Source: a virus. Taken from it: a DNA stretch of 25,098 nucleotides. A model generated the notes under the pieces. That model had not been told where the DNA came from and did no database searches. It saw nothing but the letters and a program-made list of their open reading frames with translations. Shown in pieces: positions 4,901 to 24,977 of this stretch; the first letter of the stretch is position 1, and each line of letters starts with the position of its first letter. Position numbers and translations under genes: made by a program. The stretch lies in IMG/VR virus record IMGVR_UViG_3300025012_000273, positions 1 to 25,098 of that record; one strand, written 5' to 3'.

Positions 4901-5860
4901 CCCTGAACCATCAGTCTTCCAGACCTTCGAGGCATTTCCCGCCCCCGAAGTCACCAGACCCGCCGCCGTAAACGAGTTTGAAGGGATGGTCGAAGACGTG
5001 TGATTGTGCGTATCGTCACCGACTACAATAGCCCCATACGTCCCTGAGACATCCCCGCCAAAGGCCGTTGACGTACCTATCTTCCCGTTAAACTGATTCT
5101 GGACTAAAGACGTTACCCCGCTCAGATAACTTATTTCAGTCGAGGTCACGGAAGATGTTGCGACTTTACCCGAAGTATTAGAGACAAGCGCCCGACTTGC
5201 GGTAAGGTCGCTTCCGGTAATAGTAGTCGCTCCCCCGGTTACGGTCGACTGTTTCGCATTGAGAGTGCTCTGTAAATCAGTAATGCTGCTTATTGGATGT
5301 TGGTCTGCGCTGTCTCTGCCGGTAGTACTTTCATGTGTTACAACGCCCCCTTCCCCGGCCCTGTTGAGAGAGGTGTACGCAGTAAATGCGGCAACAGTTA
5401 GCCGTTCAGTTGACGTATACGTGTCAAAGATAGTTTTGCCTAGCTTGTCATCAAGCGAACTTTGCAAGTTTGTGATGCTGCTAATTGGGTGTTGGTCGGA
5501 AGCATCTTTTCCTGTAAGGCTTTCATGGGTAGTAACGCCAGCACGTTCAACCGAGGTGTATGCGGCAAATATAGAGGCAAGAAGCCTGTCTTGAGAGGTA
5601 TAAGCGGCAAAAGTTGCTTCATCGAGTTTCCCCGCAACACTTGCCGCCGCATTAGGCCTATGCTTGTAGGCACTCGACGCATTGATGTAGACCAAAGCAC
5701 TACCGTCATCACCAGCGGTCGGAGCTTCGACCCGTTTCCCCTGGATCTTGTTGGCATCAGTCTTCGCCGGCAGTGCGACTCCCGCCCATACGTGAGGGAG
5801 GATTTCAACACAGGCGATAATCCCAAAAGCTGCGATGATCGGTAAAGTGCCGCGTTTCAT
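1958..5860 (-). CDS. Tailspike / tail fibre with pectate-lyase-type beta-helix domain
   Basis: A 1300-aa receptor-binding protein. Residues 1-27 form a signal-like segment (MKRGTLPIIAAFGIIACVEI then LPHVWA), unusual for a virion protein. Residues about 80-205 hold two modules of the common fibre type containing DQHPISSIT (residues 122-130 and 187-195), separated by AAYTS/TAYTS spacers. A third YTS pair lies near 423-440. From about 466, ADFGCTGDGSTDDT marks the start of a pectate-lyase-superfamily beta-helix, extending to roughly residue 790; such domains bind or cleave surface polysaccharide. The C-terminal part has two related TNIRF-containing domains and ends in an intramolecular-type tip finishing with KRVQITGTW. 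An AAGGGG site precedes the ATG. Depolymerase activity cannot be read from sequence. Confidence 0.85.
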   Translation of the reverse strand: MKRGTLPIIAAFGIIACVEILPHVWAGVALPAKTDANKIQGKRVEAPTAGDDGSALVYINASSAYKHRPNAAASVAGKLDEATFAAYTSQDRLLASIFAAYTSVERAGVTTHESLTGKDASDQHPISSITNLQSSLDDKLGKTIFDTYTSTERLTVAAFTAYTSLNRAGEGGVVTHESTTGRDSADQHPISSITDLQSTLNAKQSTVTGGATTITGSDLTASRALVSNTSGKVATSSVTSTEISYLSGVTSLVQNQFNGKIGTSTAFGGDVSGTYGAIVVGDDTHNHTSSTIPSNSFTAAGLVTSGAGNASKVWKTDGSGNPAWRDDLTGSSPTFDTVGGGTNTSSTMTLGSGGTLTYSGTGVVNASKYKGETGPSAVEFAYLSDLESAILEVNDVVNNLTAGGTAVPLSAEQGKVLNTAFKNYTTTDRLPVSAFTSYTSAGGGRVTQDEVAAGYSPLAKTANYIDAKADFGCTGDGSTDDTTCITNALASAVSTGRPLKFIDGIFKTSGGFLIDDPITLVGENATFRLSANATLFDVSVIDNVRMGGFAIEVPDANTATTLRVSSSYSRAVGRGWGPIRNHRYHDIKIYTASAIDWDPTTGAAGDVSLEPAWTGIEFWIDTTDGRSGINYVELENIHIEFPYYGIKNTKAGTTPANNAWMAGNSFKNIVIHGAEAAYYSREVNFNANTFNHFMIHPLRNDANIGLDWDAWCNSNVVEMQVFNDSGWNGQTRGDFNPLSFNGGVGNIVTGYLEYSTATPPSGLEDNTVIADLLETDTSLWSPPTNVNQYKSIAQIRAPVAIKGYTSTTTGAVDDPTALKVVREYTSTGTSNIMSVFDVYGDIVRFMARSANGTEATPTKKLADDVLFAFGARGHTGSGWPSFATAQMQFQAEENMDTGLGTNIRFLTTAAGNPAISAPTLALKINSGQRSIFSTNGAYSDDGTSRVQVDGTVKATAFAGDGSGLTGIGSAVNLASIAAGGTVSCDNTIVTITSGAAGADTTLPADCIAGKILTVKNSSGAAQDIIAASGYIDDTPGLEWRIPSTGTGQFISEGTTLGWQAVKHPIPDCDNATTSKLLYDVTTNTYTCGTDQTGSGIAVNDTSVTISDTGTGSSITTTVDNVPAAIFSASTYGIGTITPQKGVDIYGGVDTREFMVRREKTLASGGGLVYLFHNNAKSGPDFVLPSAADRLGGLVFGSFSGTESAATARNGGAILAYAEDEYVGGTDHSTNIRFETTPVDSATRAERLRIQADGKLRMSNQSAPATTTTACTAGTFTFVNDYLYLCTATDTWKRVQITGTW

Positions 5861-5863
5861 GCG

Positions 5864-6235
5864 TTACCCCTTGATGATGCCCAGAATTTCAGCAGCGGTT
5901 ACTTTGAAGCCAGCCAGGTCGGAAACATCCTTGACTTTCGGCAGAGCAGGCTTGTTGCCGATAGACTTGCCGTAAGCCTCGACGGGAATCTGAGCGATTG
6001 CAGCCTTGATGATTTCCAGGCGGTCAAATTCGCCTTCTAAAGCCTCTTTCGTTTCTTCCTGCGGCACTACTATGTCTTTTGCTTTTTCTGCAGTCACGGG
6101 AACAGGAGTTTCTTCGACAGGCATCTCATACGGTTCCATGTCATCACGATTCGCCTTGAACGGAGAAAAGGGATAGATACGTCCGGTCGTGGTCTGCTTC
6201 AGATATTTCGGTGGGTTTAAAAGATCGATCTTCAT
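5864..6235 (-). CDS. Hypothetical virion-region protein
   Basis: A 123-aa protein starting MKIDLLNPPKYLKQTTTGRI. The middle is acidic and Pro/Val/Thr-rich (around VEETPVPVTAEKAKD), and the C-terminus is a small helical region ending FKVTAAEILGIIKG. The start at 6235 is selected because AAGGAGG lies 5 nt before it; an in-frame ATG at 6337 would add 34 residues but has only a weak site. It lies between a decoration-like protein and the tailspike, so a head-tail or accessory structural role is an inference. No known domain recognised. Confidence 0.55.
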   Translation of the reverse strand: MKIDLLNPPKYLKQTTTGRIYPFSPFKANRDDMEPYEMPVEETPVPVTAEKAKDIVVPQEETKEALEGEFDRLEIIKAAIAQIPVEAYGKSIGNKPALPKVKDVSDLAGFKVTAAEILGIIKG

Positions 6236-10394: not shown

Positions 10395-10966
10395 TATGTT
10401 TCCTCGTACCAGAATAGTTTGAGATGGACGTTGACAGTCCCGGCACCGTTATTAGTGACTTTGATGAAATACTTTGTCCCAGGGTTGAGGACGATTTCGT
10501 TTTCTCCAATAGCCCCCGCCCCTGTTTTGCTGACGCCTACTCCCGTCCCGCCACCAAGAAAGTCGGAGTCGATCCTTAAAGTCGGACTTGGCGTAGTCGG
10601 AGTATGAAAGAAGGTGTCTACCATCGCACTAGCAACCGGGTTGTACCGATGCCGATTAATTGGTGTCAGTCCCGTTCCATTGGCTGCTACCGTCCCACCT
10701 TCGTACATCTCGACATCGACATTCGGGCCATCGCTCGTCAACAGCGAAGGCTTGAAATGCACCAGCCCACTAGTGATTGCCGGGGTCACAAAATAGAGAA
10801 ACGCGGTCCCTGCCGGGGCAATATTGGCAAACTTATGTGCCAACGTGAAAGCAATCTTCTGGTGAATGCCGTGATGGTCCTGCGTGATAACCACCAGGTC
10901 ATTTGTCAAGGCATCGACCTTGACGACTTCAGGAATCCCGTATTCGTTATCGCCGATCATTGTCAT
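10391..10966 (-). CDS. Virion-associated hypothetical protein
   Basis: 191 aa, mostly beta structure. Contains HFKPSLLTSDGPNVDVEMYE, a Gly-rich turn (FLGGGTGVGVSKTG) and a final strand pattern NPGTKYFIKVTNNGAGTVNV. The last motif (PGT-y-x-I-x-V-x-N) recurs in proteins encoded next to podovirus portals and coats. The start overlaps the portal stop as ATGA. A head-fibre or decoration role is inferred from context; the family has no assigned function that I recognise. Confidence 0.6.
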   Translation of the reverse strand: MTMIGDNEYGIPEVVKVDALTNDLVVITQDHHGIHQKIAFTLAHKFANIAPAGTAFLYFVTPAITSGLVHFKPSLLTSDGPNVDVEMYEGGTVAANGTGLTPINRHRYNPVASAMVDTFFHTPTTPSPTLRIDSDFLGGGTGVGVSKTGAGAIGENEIVLNPGTKYFIKVTNNGAGTVNVHLKLFWYEETY

Positions 10967-13062
10967 GCCGCTAACCCCTGCATATCAGCCCCACCCGCAG
11001 GATTCCCCGCAGGATCGAGAGTCTGAGGCGCGGGACCGGGAGACGGCCCGTTCATGCCTGTCGGAGAACCACCCATCGGAGAAGATCCTTTTTGTTGCAA
11101 CTGAAGGAGTTGCTGTTTCTGCTGTTCCTCGATCTTCGCCATGATCTCCTTGAGTCCATTTTCATCGGGGATGATGTCGTCAACCGGAATGTCGAGTCCT
11201 TGCAGCGCCACCTTGAGCAACTTTGCTCTGCCAGGAATACCCATGATTTGCGAGTCTATCGGGTTGTTGGTAGCAGCAAGGATCTCGTTCGTGCGAACGG
11301 TCTTCTGTTCCTTCGCCATGAACCCTGCGGAACCCCTTGCCACGACTTTCGCATCTCCCTTGATGCTTTCATCCGAGTCGTAAAGCATGTTGAAGTCGTA
11401 GGTCCGAGAGACACAGCCAGCGAAGACGCGATCAATGTGAGCAATTGCTTCCTTGATGTTTCGGGAAGCGGAAGTCATGAGCATGGAAAGACCGGAAGAC
11501 GTAGTCCCTGCACCGCCGATATTGGTATTACCGTAAGCCCATCGTGGAATCCCAGTCTGATCTTCAGCAATGGTTGACCAGACTTCCAAGACTGCTTGAA
11601 GGGCCTGCACGACTATCGGGATGTTGTAGACTCTGACGGCGGGAGCTTCCAACATCTGTGAATTGGTGGACTGAAAGATTTTCCAGGGGTGTAACTTTTC
11701 GTTTTCACCGCATCTATCAGTGTTGACTTCGATGATCGGTCCTGAAGCCAGCATTGCGTTATTGGCAATCGCCCTACCCGCGACATTCGCCTGATGCTGC
11801 GCGTCTGCCATCAACTCAGGAACGCCCTTGCCCCAAAAGGAACCGGGAACGCGATGATACGAGTCCACCGAATACGGCTTTCTGCCTAACTTGTCAGGAT
11901 TGAGAATCGCCCGAATGACGTAGGAACCGACCATGATTGCGTTGATTTCGTACTCTTCTTCAGGGTCAAGGTCTTTCATGCCCCAATCAATCAACATCGA
12001 CCCGGGAACCGATCCCCAAAACTCCAAACCGTCCATCTTGTCTGACTTGTAGAGAGAGTCGGTGGAACCAAAGTCGAACATCGCTCTCTGAGAGTCGATT
12101 GAAAGCTGTTCTCTCTTCCCGCCGATGCCGTATTCCTTGATGACGGTCCTGATATTCTCTTCGGAGTAGCCAGGAACACCGATCATCTCCCACAAGCCTT
12201 TACGGGTCAGGGGGATTCTCTCGATCAAATAACCGTCATCGGGATTTCTCGAATCAGGAGCAGGATAAAGGTCAAACGGGGAGACTCGTTCATAGGTCGG
12301 CTTGAGGCTTTTCGTCGCAGAGACGTTCCAGCCGTCCGGCCCCTGCACCCATTCCTGGGTCTTGACCTGTCTCACAACCGGGCCTTTGATGATGCCGGCT
12401 TTGAGTCTTACGAAGTCCGAGACGAAGGCCCACTGTGCATCGTGAAAGCCCCCTTCGGTCATCTGGTCATCGATCTTCTGCGACATTCTCGCGCAACGTC
12501 TGACGGCTTCTTCCTGCACTTCCCGTAGAGCCTTGTCGCGTTTCGTGGTCGCGTATTCCCTGATCTCGTCCTTGATGTCGGAGAGGTTGAACATCTCCCC
12601 GGCCTGCATGATTTGAGCTAAGACTTCCTGATAGACCATCTCAGTCTCGTTCATGATTTCGGCTTCAAGGTCAGGCTGAAGTTGCGCCACAGGAGTCGGT
12701 TGAATCGTCCACGGCTTGTCGTCTATCGGTCGGAGGATGTCGTTGATCCACGTTTCCGCCGCCCTACAGAGTTTCGCGGTCAGAAGGACGTAGACTTCAG
12801 AACCGCCCATTTCCCTGATTGCCGCCAGAACGTCAGCTTCGTAGATGCCGTTATCCATTCTGAGGTTACGGAGCATCTGCTGTTCGATAGGCTGCTTCGC
12901 CATTTTCGCAGCGTCCCAACATTTAGCGATGTATCCAGAAAGGGGGGAGATGATAGGGTTATCTTGCGGGGCAGGGGTCTTGGAGGCTTGTTCGGCAAAG
13001 ACGGCGTCGGGGCTTCTGTATTTGTGAAATCCGATGCTTGATACGCCGTCGATTGCTTGCAT
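10963..13062 (-). CDS. Portal protein (head-tail connector)
   Basis: 699 aa. Forms the dodecameric channel through which the terminase packages DNA. Seen here: an N-terminal helical clip/wing region (VYVLLTAKLCRAAETWINDI), the segment YERVSPFDLYPAPDSRNPDD found in P22/T7-type portals, PGSFWGKGVPELMADAQHQA (a conserved portal core motif), WAYGNTNIGGAGTTSSGLS, and a Gln-rich then Pro/Gly-rich C-terminal tail. Size and motifs fit podovirus-type portals. The ATG at 13062 is chosen for its GGAG site 6 nt upstream; a TTG four codons earlier lies inside that site. An intrinsic terminator lies just before it, so expression needs read-through. Confidence 0.9.
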   Translation of the reverse strand: MQAIDGVSSIGFHKYRSPDAVFAEQASKTPAPQDNPIISPLSGYIAKCWDAAKMAKQPIEQQMLRNLRMDNGIYEADVLAAIREMGGSEVYVLLTAKLCRAAETWINDILRPIDDKPWTIQPTPVAQLQPDLEAEIMNETEMVYQEVLAQIMQAGEMFNLSDIKDEIREYATTKRDKALREVQEEAVRRCARMSQKIDDQMTEGGFHDAQWAFVSDFVRLKAGIIKGPVVRQVKTQEWVQGPDGWNVSATKSLKPTYERVSPFDLYPAPDSRNPDDGYLIERIPLTRKGLWEMIGVPGYSEENIRTVIKEYGIGGKREQLSIDSQRAMFDFGSTDSLYKSDKMDGLEFWGSVPGSMLIDWGMKDLDPEEEYEINAIMVGSYVIRAILNPDKLGRKPYSVDSYHRVPGSFWGKGVPELMADAQHQANVAGRAIANNAMLASGPIIEVNTDRCGENEKLHPWKIFQSTNSQMLEAPAVRVYNIPIVVQALQAVLEVWSTIAEDQTGIPRWAYGNTNIGGAGTTSSGLSMLMTSASRNIKEAIAHIDRVFAGCVSRTYDFNMLYDSDESIKGDAKVVARGSAGFMAKEQKTVRTNEILAATNNPIDSQIMGIPGRAKLLKVALQGLDIPVDDIIPDENGLKEIMAKIEEQQKQQLLQLQQKGSSPMGGSPTGMNGPSPGPAPQTLDPAGNPAGGADMQGLAA

Positions 13063-13077
13063 TCTGAACTCCAAAAG

Positions 13078-13142: not shown

Positions 13143-13625
13143 CTAAAGAATATTCAGCTTTGCAAACTCTCCAAAAAATACTACTGCTTGGTTGTTGTAA
13201 GCTTTCGCTGCTTCTTCCTCTGTATCAAATTGGCCTAGATATTGTCTTTTGCCAAATATTTTAATATGTGCTTTCCATTTTGCGTTGGCCTTATTAAGCC
13301 ACACTCCTTTGAATCTTGAAGCACCTTTGGTTTTACGAGTGTTTGCCTGTTGCTGCGTTCTGGTAGCAAACCTTAAATTAGACCGCCTATTGTCTAATCC
13401 ATTACTATTTTGGTGGTCTACCGTTACCCCGTCCATAGGTTGCATAATGAATCGGTGCATCAAAACAGATTTATATTTACCATTCCCAAGATATTCGTCC
13501 GTTATGGCGTACACTAAATCTGAATTTTTTACTCTAAACGCACGCCATTTTCTTAAAACTACCGACTTATAATCTTCATCATCAACAACAGCCACAAATC
13601 CATGGTTAAGCTTTATCTCGTTCAT
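13143..13625 (-). CDS. HNH homing endonuclease with AP2 DNA-binding domain
   Basis: 160 aa. The HNH core spans about residues 50-95: LMHRFIMQP (His57), VDHQNSNGLDNRRSNLRFAT with Asp70, His71 and Asn80. A C-terminal AP2/ERF-type domain follows at 103-158 (SRFKGVWLNKANAKWKAHI, YLGQFDTEEEAAKAYNNQA). Such proteins are free-standing homing endonucleases that nick or cut phage DNA near their own insertion site. GGGGGTGG precedes the ATG. The gene is AT-richer than its neighbours and is bracketed by an upstream promoter and a downstream terminator, consistent with a recently acquired moron. Confidence 0.9.
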   Translation of the reverse strand: MNEIKLNHGFVAVVDDEDYKSVVLRKWRAFRVKNSDLVYAITDEYLGNGKYKSVLMHRFIMQPMDGVTVDHQNSNGLDNRRSNLRFATRTQQQANTRKTKGASRFKGVWLNKANAKWKAHIKIFGKRQYLGQFDTEEEAAKAYNNQAVVFFGEFAKLNIL

Positions 13626-13706
13626 TCCACCCCCGTAAGGTGCCGTATATTTTGTTAACGCCCAGACTGGTACGGTTCCAGTTTTTCCCCCGCTAAAGGT
13701 AGGGCG

Positions 13707-13835
13707 CTACTTTAAATCCTGAACTTCCTTGTATTCAATTTTCTTCGGCTCCCCATCGGCATAATGCACGGTAACGGAACCATGAAATTTTTGTTTGTCC
13801 TCGACCAGTTTTTTAGCAACTTCTTTTTTTGTCAT
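13707..13835 (-). CDS. 42-aa charged protein, probably translated from a leaderless mRNA
   Basis: Begins MTKKEVAKKLVEDKQKFHGS, continues with VTVHYADGEPKKIEYKEV and ends QDLK. A basic helix is followed by a predicted beta hairpin; no Cys, no membrane span. There is no Shine-Dalgarno sequence before the ATG, unlike most genes here, but a TTGACA promoter places the transcript start about two bases upstream. The downstream sequence contains pairings (CGCCC / GGGCG; ACTGG / CCAGT) before the HNH-AP2 gene. The fold pattern resembles no family I can name. Confidence 0.55.
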   Translation of the reverse strand: MTKKEVAKKLVEDKQKFHGSVTVHYADGEPKKIEYKEVQDLK

Positions 13836-13872: not shown

Positions 13873-13918
13873 GAGATTATTTTCATGGAAGTTTAAGCAC
13901 CAATAATTTCCATCTCTT
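13871..13918 (-). repeat. Inverted repeat overlapping a promoter
   Basis: AAGAGAT / ATCTCTT, 7 perfect base pairs (13912-13918 and 13871-13877), with an additional inner GGAA / TTCC pairing. The proximal arm overlaps the -35 hexamer of the promoter at 13844-13872 by two bases, so it may be an operator, or the 3' end structure of the RNA upstream. There is no U-run. Confidence 0.4.
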
Positions 13919-13955
13919 CTTTAGTTATTTGATGTCCTCGATGAATCCCTTGAGT

Positions 13956-14345
13956 GATGCCGTAGTCAAGCCCCCCCTACCCCCCAAAGCATAGAAATGC
14001 TCAGGAAGTAGGTTCGCTAACTACGGCATCAACGAGAACCGCGCATTGTGTCCTGCGAAGTTATCCTCTCGCTTATCCGCTCACAGACCCGTTAGTACGG
14101 CACCGATACTTTGGTGGCCTTGACGCCCTCTGTGATTCGTCTAGGTCGGTGCTAGCCAATCCCCGCTTCTTCACCGTCGCACCATAACCCCCACTGATAC
14201 GGCATACAGCAGGCAGGGGAAATAAAACGCCCCCCTTGGGATTTTTTACGGTGTCAAGGCGTAAAGAGCAGTACCCAAGAGGGGCTTAGACGGCGCATTG
14301 CCGGTGAAGCTATTCAGTTGTAAACTACTCTTATTCCTTGACGCC
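13956..14345 (-). ncRNA. Candidate large structured non-coding RNA
   Basis: About 390 nt with no supported reading frame, directly downstream of a TTGACA promoter. Perfect pairings read on the minus strand are as follows. GATGCCGTAGT / ACTACGGCATC (11 bp, 14020-14030 with 13956-13966) encloses CCTACTTCC / GGGGGTAGG and AGCAT / ATGCT. CCCC-T-CTTGGG pairs with CCCAAG-GGGGG (14274-14284 with 14230-14240) and encloses TTTACG / CGTAAA. CTTCACCG / CGGTGAAG pair at long range (14302-14309 with 14169-14176). GCACCGA / TCGGTGC pair at 14146-14152 with 14100-14106. CGAGA / TCTCG pair at 14067-14071 with 14033-14037. Two loops (CCUUGAC and GUCAAGG) can kiss. Large ornate phage RNAs such as GOLLD or ROOL are possible relatives, but I cannot confirm any family. 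The 3' end is undefined. Confidence 0.65.
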
Positions 14346-14348
14346 GAT

Positions 14349-14378
14349 AATGTACCTAAACTCATTCGGGGATGTCAA
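14349..14378 (-). promoter_or_regulatory. Sigma70-type promoter for the structured RNA
   Basis: A perfect -35 TTGACA (14373-14378), an 18-bp spacer and -10 TACATT (14349-14354, 4 of 6). The predicted start, near 14342, falls inside GGCGTCAAGG, the first copy of a 10-mer that recurs within the RNA. Confidence 0.6.
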
Positions 14379-15139: not shown

Positions 15140-15387
15140 GTTGCTTCGACACGCACTACGTTATGATCAAAGTCGATGCTGATTATAATTTCATCCATGC
15201 CGTCAAGGTCTATCCCATGCAATCTCATCTGCATCTTCAGCGTCGTGATTAACGCTTCTGGTGTCTCGCAGGGGAGTTTCATGAAGTCGGGGAGCGGGAT
15301 GTGCAGCGTGTTTTGGGACGTGGGCCATTTTATTCGATGATTGCGCATTTGAGCTTTACCGATTGAGTCAACCTCTACCATAAGCAT
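15121..15387 (-). CDS. Hypothetical protein, paralogue of the 14402 product
   Basis: 88 aa, starting MLMVEVDSIGKAQMRNHRIK. The region LHIPLPDFMKLPCETPEA, continuing to an LHGIDLDGMDEIIISIDF segment, aligns with the protein fragment encoded at 14402-14665, pointing to a local duplication. The pattern is strand, helix, strand with acidic loops. GAGG lies 8 nt before the ATG, and the gene overlaps the HNH gene by 13 nt. Function unknown. Confidence 0.55.
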   Translation of the reverse strand: MLMVEVDSIGKAQMRNHRIKWPTSQNTLHIPLPDFMKLPCETPEALITTLKMQMRLHGIDLDGMDEIIISIDFDHNVVRVEATWSVPF

Positions 15388-15797
15388 GAATTGGCCTCTA
15401 ATTCTCTTTTTCTACGGATATGGCCTTTGGTAAGGACTCCTTTGGTATAAGCATTTTCACCTTTTTTATAAAACCCTCGCCCCCTTTCGGCTCGGTCCCT
15501 ACAATTCTCCTTGTTGGTGCCCAAATACAAATGCTTGGGGTTAACACATGAGGGGTTATCACAATGGTGTAAAACCCATAAACCTTCAGGTATAGGGCCG
15601 TTAGCTATTATCCACGCTACTTTGTTGGATCTTGCTTTTTGTCGCCCATATCTGAATCTTCCATACCCATCCTTATCTTTACCAGCCATCCATTCCCAAC
15701 ACTCATTATCTCCTTTTACCGACACCTTGGCCCAAAATCTTACGGCAAGAGGTACACCATACATTTTGACTGAATATCGTTCAGATGCTGCGCTCAT
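15375..15797 (-). CDS. HNH endonuclease
   Basis: 140 aa. The N-terminal part has the family opening RFWAKVSVKGDNECWEWMAG and GYGRFRYG. The catalytic core is WVLHHCDNPSCVNPKHLYLG (His77, His78, Cys79, Cys84, Asn86, His89), typical of HNH_3-type free-standing endonucleases of phages. The ending GENAYTKGVLTKGHIRRK looks like a truncated or diverged NUMOD/HTH tail. The start overlaps the ribbon-helix-helix gene (ATGA). These enzymes nick specific DNA sites; its position in a regulated accessory operon is unusual for a pure homing enzyme. Confidence 0.85.
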   Translation of the reverse strand: MSAASERYSVKMYGVPLAVRFWAKVSVKGDNECWEWMAGKDKDGYGRFRYGRQKARSNKVAWIIANGPIPEGLWVLHHCDNPSCVNPKHLYLGTNKENCRDRAERGRGFYKKGENAYTKGVLTKGHIRRKRELEANSCLW

Positions 15798-16026: not shown

Positions 16027-17772
16027 TTAGCACCCGCCCCACCCACCCCTATTGCCACCTGAACTTTTACCTTCTTTAAGATGAGATGGTTTCGGACGTT
16101 GAGGGATTGGGACCTTGAGGCGTAAATACTTTCCAATGGCTATGGAAATAACTCTATCATCGTGCCAACCTTGTTCAGCTTCTTCTTTCGATCCACACTT
16201 TTTGAAGCCAAGCATTTCACTGAATGTCTCGGCGCAATTTATGCCGTGAGTCCCTTCGATACACTCAAGTTTGAGCGTGTCAAGGATCTCGGTTCTTGTC
16301 TTGGAACTAGTTACCCATCCCCACCGTTTACGTGGCTTACCTGGCGGTTCAGGGACCATCTCCATGTGGATTCTAGGGTATCCAGAGTCAACTATTTCGG
16401 TGACAGTCGTAAGGCCGTGGTTGTTGCGCTCAGGGGCTAAATACGCCACGTTATATCTTCTACCAAGAGACACCAGTATTTGACCATATATCTTGGGAGG
16501 CCATTTGCCATGAAGATGCGCCACTTGTTCGCCTGTTCGATGGTCTATAACATCAGCCGAATCAAAATCTCCGCTTTCAAGACCTTCAGCCACGTCAGCA
16601 CTAATGATATACGAGGCTCCGACTTTAGGCTCTTGCCACACGCGAAGCTCGCCGTCTTCTTTTGCGTACCATACGCCCGTTGACGGCATACACGAATACC
16701 GTACTTTGGGAGATTTTGCCGCATCTCTAAAAGCCGCAATCTTTTTGTTATCAAAAACTGGAACTCCGGTTGAAAAGAAAGCTTCTTCTGGTGTAGAGGG
16801 ATGCATTTCGTTAAATTTCTCGATAATGCCATCGGCGTCATTATCAATCGTGTATCTGCGCCAATACATTTGTTCGTCGTCTAAATTAAACTGAGCTTTT
16901 ATTTCGGTCTCTTCTTCTGTCAAAACAAAATCGGATGGTACGAGCATCCTATTGAGCTCAAAAATAAACCAAGGGAAAAATATGGCAGTGTAATTATTTG
17001 ACTTATTAGCGGATTCGTTGATTTCCTCTTCGACTATTGGTTCACCATTATCATCCAGCCTTTTTACAAAATACCTGTAACGGCACCCCCAAAATCTTCG
17101 ATATACTTCACCCCCAACGCCGTCTGCTGTACCCTCAATCACTACTTCTGTACCTGGTTCGGGGGGTACGCATGGCAGTACAGCCTTAATCAGACCTTCT
17201 GCGTTCTCGCGGGGCAGTTTAAAGGCATCAGATATATGAAGTCGATGTACTGCTTGCCCTGAACCAACATCATCTTTACCGCCAGTCGCAACACGAAAAG
17301 CAGAATCAAGGCCCGTTCCTTGCGCGTTGTTGAACTCCAAAAGACGGGCGTTGTTGGCGAGAACTTCCGGCCTCTCCTTTGCCGGGATATTATTGTGAAA
17401 GCGTTTGACCATTTTGAAAATGAACTCACTCGCAGCGGGTTCGTGTGTAATTTGCATGCAATATGTACTTGGATTGCTCGTAACGTGCTGGTAATTCTTA
17501 CCGGAAAAAAGCGTCGATATGCCCTGCCGCCTGCCTTTTAAAATAACCACTCTGACTAAACGGCCTTTGGCTACAATTTTTCTTTCAATCTTTTCATAAA
17601 GTCGTTGTGGACCGTTGAGTATGAAACGCTCAAAGCCGCCCCCCTCCCTCGGCTGCACCTTGAGCTTCGTCCTGGCGTATTCCTCGAAATCCACCGACAT
17701 CTTCAAGTCAGCGATCAACTCCGCTATCTGGTCGGCACTGAGGTCTTCGAATTGTTGAAGGGCATTAGCCAT
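16027..17772 (-). CDS. terL: Terminase large subunit (packaging ATPase and nuclease)
   Basis: 581 aa. Cuts concatemeric phage DNA and drives it through the portal. ATPase domain: Walker A-like GRRQGIST at residues 80-87, a Walker B region around HRLHISDAFK (177-185) and the conserved VVIEGTADGVGGEV (210-223). RNase H-like nuclease domain: SADVAEGLESGDFDSADV with Asp393, APERNNHG with Glu448, and GWHDDRVISIAIG with Asp538/Asp539. The length is typical. The start overlaps the 51-aa membrane protein gene by 8 nt; no strong ribosome site is visible, so translational coupling is likely. The C-terminus is Gly-rich (SSGGNRGGWGGC). Confidence 0.93.
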   Translation of the reverse strand: MANALQQFEDLSADQIAELIADLKMSVDFEEYARTKLKVQPREGGGFERFILNGPQRLYEKIERKIVAKGRLVRVVILKGRRQGISTLFSGKNYQHVTSNPSTYCMQITHEPAASEFIFKMVKRFHNNIPAKERPEVLANNARLLEFNNAQGTGLDSAFRVATGGKDDVGSGQAVHRLHISDAFKLPRENAEGLIKAVLPCVPPEPGTEVVIEGTADGVGGEVYRRFWGCRYRYFVKRLDDNGEPIVEEEINESANKSNNYTAIFFPWFIFELNRMLVPSDFVLTEEETEIKAQFNLDDEQMYWRRYTIDNDADGIIEKFNEMHPSTPEEAFFSTGVPVFDNKKIAAFRDAAKSPKVRYSCMPSTGVWYAKEDGELRVWQEPKVGASYIISADVAEGLESGDFDSADVIDHRTGEQVAHLHGKWPPKIYGQILVSLGRRYNVAYLAPERNNHGLTTVTEIVDSGYPRIHMEMVPEPPGKPRKRWGWVTSSKTRTEILDTLKLECIEGTHGINCAETFSEMLGFKKCGSKEEAEQGWHDDRVISIAIGKYLRLKVPIPQRPKPSHLKEGKSSGGNRGGWGGC

Positions 17773-23933: not shown

Positions 23934-24256
23934 GGCTCAGAAACCTTAAGCAATTTCATTGCCTGTTTAATGTCGTCAAGTGTAACTCCATCAGGGCGAG
24001 TTCCATAGCGAATAGCCTCTTGTAAGCGGCCCCATACTTTGCTTAACTCTAACTCTTGCAAGTAAGTCTCTTGGTTTAAATAACATCTTCCAGGCGAAGA
24101 GCCATCTGCGTACCACGTTTCAAGATCAATGCGCTCTGGTCTGAACCCTTCTCCAACCGTTGCCCATTTCCGCCCCACCTTAGTAACTTCGACTTCGTAT
24201 GACGCACCTCTACTCGGCACGTACCAGAGTTTTTGACCCACCTTTAACATTGTCAT
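23930..24256 (-). CDS. Hypothetical protein with N-terminal small beta-barrel
   Basis: 108 aa. MTMLKVGQKLWYVPSRGASY followed by EVEVTKVGRKWATV gives strands typical of a KOW/SH3-like barrel, then a helical C-terminus (VTLDDIKQAMKLLKVSEP). The layout is frequent in small phage proteins. The ATG overlaps the recombinase stop (ATGA), with GGGAGA just upstream. Confidence 0.55.
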   Translation of the reverse strand: MTMLKVGQKLWYVPSRGASYEVEVTKVGRKWATVGEGFRPERIDLETWYADGSSPGRCYLNQETYLQELELSKVWGRLQEAIRYGTRPDGVTLDDIKQAMKLLKVSEP

Positions 24257-24840
24257 ATCTCCCTCATATACATCGTTTTCATATCTTCCACCTGAAGACC
24301 AAGATAAACCCGTGTAACCTTTTCCGACACATGACCCAACGCTTCCGCAATCATCGTCAAAGACTCCCCCGATTCAAACTGAAATCGCGCCCAAGTCTTT
24401 CTCAACGTATGAGCTGAATACCCCCCACGAAGCCCCGCCCTGAAACACCACGTCTTCACCATCTGCGAAAACGCTGGCACAGTCAGAGGCCCACCGCCGC
24501 GCTCAGAGGCAAACAGCCAATCGTCGTCATCCCTTCCTTCGATCAAAGGCACAACCGCTTTCTTGATGGAGTTGTTGATATAGAACTCACGAACTTTACC
24601 AGTCTTCTTCTCGCGCTTCTTAACAACGTCACCCTTCACATCGCCAACCTTCAGGCTCAAGAGATCTGAGGCACGAAACGCAGTGTTGACCCCTACAGTG
24701 AACAGAGCAAAGTCACGCGGCCTACCCGACAGGTCATCTTTGATCTTCGCTATCTTCGCCATATCAGTAATTGGCTTAGACGCTATGATGCTATCCTTTT
24801 TTGGATGATTCCGAGATTGTGCTAGTTGTCGCGGAGTCAT
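24253..24840 (-). CDS. Short tyrosine recombinase / integrase (catalytic domain only)
   Basis: 195 aa from ATG 24840, which overlaps the upstream stop (ATGA) and has GGAGAG 8 nt before it; a start at 24882 would read through the upstream gene. Catalytic residues: Arg56 (FRASDLLSLKVGDV), a Lys in the KREKKTGKVREF hairpin, His144 and Arg147 (SAHTLRKTW), His170 (LGH) and Tyr179 (TRVYLGL). Only about 35 residues precede the catalytic domain, so the usual SAM-like core-binding domain and arm-binding domain are missing. It may integrate phage DNA, resolve multimers, or be a domestic recombinase. No att site could be identified here. Confidence 0.85.
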   Translation of the reverse strand: MTPRQLAQSRNHPKKDSIIASKPITDMAKIAKIKDDLSGRPRDFALFTVGVNTAFRASDLLSLKVGDVKGDVVKKREKKTGKVREFYINNSIKKAVVPLIEGRDDDDWLFASERGGGPLTVPAFSQMVKTWCFRAGLRGGYSAHTLRKTWARFQFESGESLTMIAEALGHVSEKVTRVYLGLQVEDMKTMYMREI

Positions 24841-24977
24841 CGTGACTCTCCAAAAGTCTTGAAATAGGAATCCAGCGCACACCGGATAATCTCAGCATAC
24901 GATTTACCCGACCGTCTCTTTTCCTCGCGAAGCAACTTCATGTACTGTTCCGGTAGCGAAATATTACATGCAGGCAT
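24837..24977 (-). CDS. 46-aa ribbon-helix-helix DNA-binding protein
   Basis: MPACNISLPEQYMKLLREEK then RRSGKSYAEIIRCALDSYFK: ribbon strand CNISLP, helix A, a turn with SGKSYAEI and helix B. This is the Arc/CopG fold. It is the first gene after the strong promoter at 25015-25043 and is coupled to the recombinase, so it could regulate that promoter or assist recombination as an excisionase-like factor. AGGGGGTGA lies 6 nt before the ATG. Confidence 0.65.
   Translation of the reverse strand: MPACNISLPEQYMKLLREEKRRSGKSYAEIIRCALDSYFKTFGESR

Follow-up and report, generated by a model that had tools for sequence, protein, structure and literature searches.

Large structured RNAs are few in bacteria and their phages, and each new class represents an independent case on the role that such molecules have for phages. 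Two of them, GOLLD and ROOL, form RNA cages. Other RNAs have a characteristic gene neighbourhood: the pRNA of phage phi29 is encoded among the packaging genes, and the HEARO and omega RNAs are found beside HNH-bearing nucleases. GOLLD has a conserved 3' region and a less conserved 5' region, is often longer than 800 nt, and is located near tRNA islands (PMC12286853). ROOL, a phage and prophage RNA as well, contains several stems and pseudoknots and has no known protein partner (PMC12286853).

The window analysed here, the whole 25,098-nt stretch of a 25-kb phage contig (IMG/VR record IMGVR_UViG_3300025012_000273), carries on its minus strand a structured RNA of about 410 nt. An initial annotation of this DNA had proposed a large non-coding RNA, either a divergent member of a class such as GOLLD or ROOL or a new one. 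The RNA resembles GOLLD in its phage or prophage setting, its large size, its pseudoknot, and the conservation of its 3' part versus a less conserved 5' part, and it shares with ROOL the phage setting, the several stems and the pseudoknotting. However, it has only half the length of GOLLD, and the window is devoid of tRNAs. When all Rfam models were applied to the window RNA and to its most distant homologue (L058), at gathering as well as permissive cut-offs, only chance-level hits were obtained; the covariance models of GOLLD and ROOL gave no match in either of them even at E up to 10, and that of HEARO did not match them either. Thus, while the phage setting, the size class, the pseudoknot and the GOLLD-like conserved 3'/variable 5' pattern (PMC12286853) would suit a divergent GOLLD, ROOL or other described class that the models had missed, this reading has to be considered quite improbable.

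Neither tRNA nor tmRNA genes were found in the window by ARAGORN and Rfam, and a group I or group II intron was rejected, with no Rfam match and with complete flanking ORFs. A literature search that covered few subscription journals yielded no paper describing the ~410-nt RNA. The structured RNA encoded by this locus is real and defines a new class in phages, different from GOLLD, ROOL, introns and tmRNA; of the two alternatives in the initial annotation, the new class is the one that the Rfam searches support.

A conserved fold in six homologues

The initial annotation had named three checks for its candidate, a folding energy better than that of dinucleotide-shuffled sequence, covariation among homologues and the absence of an ORF conserved in relatives, and the locus withstands all three. 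The window region folds better than its shuffles (z -4.7 for 471 nt, -4.5 for 426 nt), as do all six homologues (z -3.2 to -4.4). The RNA of about 410 nt (z about -4.4) was surpassed by none of its shuffles. The plus strand folds equally well (z -4.9), and for this reason the strand assignment relies on G-U pairs and on the promoter, not on energy. Several of the kept pairs appear as G-U, which would be A-C on the opposite strand, and these states fix the RNA strand as minus. They also bear on the proposal of a structured DNA element (a cruciform, or a recombination or packaging site), with which the inverted repeats and the good folding of both strands would agree. As DNA, or on the opposite strand, the kept G-U states would be mismatches; moreover, the architecture is nested and interlocked, and the promoter ends right before the first stem (P1), all of which makes a DNA element extremely unlikely.

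Covariation is strong. The core alignment (A5) comprises six sequences, 282 columns and 59 pairs, with 99.4% of the pair cells formed. Fourteen of the 59 pairs have changed on both sides, nearly all of these double changes resting on the one distant homologue, L058; this number was reached by none of 500 shuffles, and no more than 4 such pairs arise when the partners are slid. Between the window and L058, 38 pairs are identical, 14 have changed on both sides without loss of pairing, 5 have changed on one side and still pair, and 2 are broken, whereas a null of independent changes at the same rate produces a mean of 2.4 double-compatible pairs (maximum 11 in 20,000 runs) and 23.5 broken ones. 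That a real structured RNA is encoded here is almost certain. The architecture became clear only when L058 was added: RNAalifold on the five close sequences returned zero covariation and a partly wrong fold, in which CGGUG/CACCG replaced P4, and L058 corrected it.

The six homologues have one architecture, in which a 5' H-type pseudoknot is followed by two hairpins (P3, P4) and then by a closed domain with several branches, P5-P10 (Table 1). P1 is a long stem that begins at the putative 5' end of the transcript, and the pseudoknot is formed by a segment within the P1 loop that pairs with a segment 3' of P1. This pseudoknot is the best of its topology in each of the six sequences, being equalled by 0-1 of 200 shuffles in each case, and it has been rebuilt with different letters in four lineages. 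Thus, L006 has AAGTGAGTAAC/GTTACTTACTT in P1 and AACCCCCTTGGG/CCCAAGGGGGTT in the pseudoknot stem, L008 an 18-bp P1 and a pseudoknot stem GACCCCCTTGG/CCAAGGGGGTT, and L058 a P1 TGCGAGCATCGG/CCGATGCTCGCA together with its own pseudoknot stem. Among the window, L002 and L003, a single P1 pair appears as C-G, U-G and U-A; together with the rebuilt pseudoknot, these P1 changes add support to that from the core. The domain closed by P10 contains P5 (with P6 and P7), P8 and P9, and double-sided changes affect three pairs in P6 and one in P7.

Table 1. Features of the RNA locus in the window (all on the minus strand)
Feature	Position	Strand	Remarks
Sigma-70-like promoter TTGACA-18-TACATT	14349-14378	-	scores 10/12
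Structured RNA, ~410 nt	13936-14345	-	homologues in L002, L003, L006, L008, L058; covariation
P1, 5' strand GGCGTCAAGG + AAGAGTAGT	14324-14345	-	pairs with 14272-14250; letters replaced in L006, L008, L058
Small hairpin CACCGGC...GCCG in pseudoknot loop	14291-14306	-	in five sequences, not L058 (alignments)
Pseudoknot stem, 5' strand GCCCCTCTTGGG	14274-14285	-	
P1, 3' strand ACTGCTCTT + CCTTGACACC	14250-14272	-	
Pseudoknot stem, 3' strand CCCAAGGGGGGC	14229-14240	-	L058 counterpart AAAACCCGCC/GGCGGGTTTT
P3 hairpin CCTGCTG/CAGTGGG, conserved loop TAYGCCGTRT	14190-14213	-	three pairs changed on both sides
P4 GGTGC/GCACC, conserved loop ...GGGGATTGG...	14148-14183	-	TGCGC/GCGCA in L058
P10, 5' strand CCTAGACGAATC, closing the 3' domain	14134-14145	-	pairs with 13947-13936; U-A to C-G in L058
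P5 TCACAGA/TCTGTGA	14081-14135	-	encloses P6 (14116-14101) and P7 (14100-14089)
P8 hairpin CGAGA...CTTCGCA/TGCGCGG...TCTCG	14032-14072	-	three pairs changed on both sides
P9 compound hairpin GATGCCGTAGTT/GACTACGGCATC	13956-14030	-	two pairs changed on both sides; tip varies 12-16%
G6-8 - (T/A)A - G7-8 tract, 3' side of P9 tip	13971-13985	-	conserved in 6/6
P10, 3' strand GATTCATCGAGG	13936-13947	-	
Remnant of downstream small ORF	13908-13928	-	ATG of relatives is ATA here (alignment)

The compound hairpin of three stacked stems already recognised in the initial annotation (14030-13956) corresponds to P9. The perfect complementary arms noted there are real, and those recovered here include one of 12 bp (13955-13966/14020-14031) and one of 8 bp (14169-14176/14302-14309). 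Only some of them are part of the conserved fold: the arm of 12 bp corresponds to P9, and the 8-bp CTTCACCG/CGGTGAAG pair is not conserved among relatives. The conserved loop of P3, GGGGATTGG in the loop of P4 and the G-tract are candidate contact sites. Five nucleotides of the P3 loop (GCCGU) are complementary to the invariant ACGGT of P4, a candidate loop contact that shows no covariation. For four of the six sequences, the window copy not among them, the energy model favours a G-quadruplex at the P9 tip. In the window, 8 nt of the P3 loop are complementary to the 3' strand of P9, but a switch based on this pairing was discarded, as it is absent from L058.

In agreement with the earlier claim that the region has no convincing ORF, no frame is open through the core in all homologues; the G-rich 3' part has an open frame in relatives (MGGKGGLDYGITQ..) and is closed in the window. 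Outside the P9 tip, the window core differs from its close relatives by only 1.3-1.8%, compared with 12-16% in the P9 tip and 20-23% at fourfold sites of the portal gene. Since the P9 tip of the same RNA varies to this extent, the low divergence of the core does not come from recent copying of the module, and it points to purifying selection on the core.

Carriers and genomic setting

Relatives were reached through the portal protein and, from it, through viral contigs of like gene order. The RNA recurs at the matching place in L002, L003, L006 and L008, four distinct phage sequences besides the window; L007 and L010 are identical copies of L006, and L025 was grouped with L008. A wider portal search led to L058, with a portal 66% identical, whose RNA is matched by the sequence profile of the close set (E = 9e-35) and is flanked by the terminase and an HNH gene. 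The comparative set is therefore formed by six distinct sequences, the window included, all of them from uncultured phages. Besides these six, DNA patterns searched in viral contigs and one genome-contig scan gave chance hits only, blastn against phages and plasmids returned no matching record, and a covariance model of P4-P8, applied to 80 portal-family loci, 30 whole contigs and the pattern hits, again gave chance hits only, often in coding DNA.

In all carriers the RNA is located between the terminase and portal genes, which in the window occupy 16027-17772 and 10963-13074 (SU10-type portal protein), respectively, accompanied by several HNH genes. The placement between these two genes given in the initial annotation holds only loosely, as small ORFs and HNH genes intervene. 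A packaging RNA serving terminase and portal, like the phi29 pRNA, would account for this constant location, and the RNA does share with pRNA the packaging-gene neighbourhood. Nevertheless, it is uncoupled from the type of terminase and missing in near-identical phages: L004 and L005 are devoid of it despite portals 98% identical to that of the window (and, in L004, a terminase that is also 98% identical), and the terminases of L003 and L008 share only 67% and 76% identity with that of the window, against 96-97% for the RNA core. The packaging role was rejected on this presence/absence pattern, which shows no linkage to the motor, and is highly improbable.

Where the carriers have a promoter and the RNA, L004 and L005 have a promoter before the next small gene. 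The RNA is an accessory element: it is absent from two near-identical phages, its neighbouring terminase is variable, and the gene downstream is not the same in all carriers or has been lost. As to the HEARO and omega RNAs, an HNH gene directly follows the RNA in L058 and is found further downstream in the window; however, the HNH genes here stand alone and belong to different Pfam families, in addition to the lack of a HEARO match.

It has to be mentioned that the terminase-portal interval, when L004 and L005 are compared with L003 and L006, displays swapping of small modules, each with a TTGACA promoter of its own, the change points being at the promoter. Two HNH genes (15375-15797 and 13143-13625) lie inside this interval in the window. 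Elsewhere in this phage with an SU10-type portal, a tyrosine-recombinase-like gene is present at 24253-24882 (minus strand; Pfam Phage_integrase, E 1e-20).

Transcription, downstream gene and proposed role

The promoter TTGACA-N18-TACATT, which had been claimed to lie directly upstream of the RNA, is indeed there, ending 3 nt short of the 5' stem, and a TTGACA occurs at a similar distance ahead of this stem in all four lineages. With regard to the RNA bounds, the 5' end is set at 14345, and 13936 is the 3' limit of the conserved fold, not a mapped transcript end. No terminator was found at the 3' end of the RNA in the window, so that the element may belong to a longer mRNA.

Such an arrangement could also correspond to an unusually extended 5' leader, of the riboswitch or attenuator kind, that controls the small gene next to it; the ribosome site of this gene, GAGG, overlaps the 3' strand of P10. 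A gene begins 8-30 nt after the RNA in five of the six sequences, and in L002, L003, L006 and L008 its ATG lies 8 nt after P10 with its GAGG within P10; the lack of a terminator between the RNA and the next gene in the window is also consistent with a leader. On the other hand, a same or related gene is not found downstream in the different carriers: the proteins are unrelated, namely MTKEEMEKE.. in L002, L003 and L008 (where the small ORF is intact), another one in L006, and an HNH endonuclease in L058. In the window this ORF has been lost and the RNA fold is intact, the ribosome site of L058 lies outside P10, and the size and the elaborate 5' pseudoknot would be atypical of a leader. Unrelated downstream genes and retention of the RNA despite ORF loss favour a trans-acting RNA over a leader of one gene; a leader is thus unlikely, and a separate RNA likely, judging from the sequence comparison.

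The most likely role of this RNA, a new type of large structured molecule carried as an accessory gene by phages with SU10-type portals, is that of a stable, trans-acting scaffold (probability of roughly 0.6). According to this proposal, it would be transcribed from its own host-type promoter, and the pseudoknot at the start of the transcript would provide a 5' end that is hard to attack, its shape being kept while its letters are free. A stem plus pseudoknot at the extreme 5' end is a plausible shield from 5'-end-dependent decay. The slowly evolving 3' domain (P3-P10) would carry the function, and the scaffold would act in trans, probably by binding the ribosome, a protein or further molecules of the same RNA. 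By analogy, its manner of working may be like that of the large 'ornate' phage RNAs.

In having its own promoter, in being present or absent among near-identical phages, and in having been retained after loss of the ORF, the RNA resembles an accessory 'moron' gene. A more specific version can only be put forward tentatively: a self-standing and dispensable 'moron' RNA, with an origin independent of GOLLD and ROOL, would form assemblies of its own via the invariant loops of P3 and P4 or the G-tract of the P9 tip, or would join the ribosome during infection. The RNA is smaller than GOLLD, and near-identical phages provide natural pairs with and without it. Its sharp division into conserved and free parts makes the role testable by deletion, and the fold by probing or cryo-EM.

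Neighbouring structured elements

Other structured elements are present close to the RNA. In the window, positions 13643-13709 (minus strand) match the Rfam int-alpA RNA (RF02996) with 37.2 bits, the cut-off being 35.8. This element sits between a 43-aa ORF (13838-13707) and the HNH/AP2 gene (13625-13143), and its location upstream of the portal gene is unexpected, because the family name implies a different gene setting. In L004, this int-alpA stretch is replaced by a second strongly folding one (5740-5990, z -5.2; similar in L006, 5730-5955), flanked by the small MNKPLW.. gene on one side and the portal gene on the other; this stretch has a terminator-like hairpin at its 3' side and zero Rfam hits at gathering score. 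Finally, in L059, L060, L064, L067, L068 and L070, a small ORF of about 40-55 aa and, behind it, a hairpin of the GCCCGGAT...CCGGGCTTTTT type directly precede the portal gene, an arrangement that recurs in the family.
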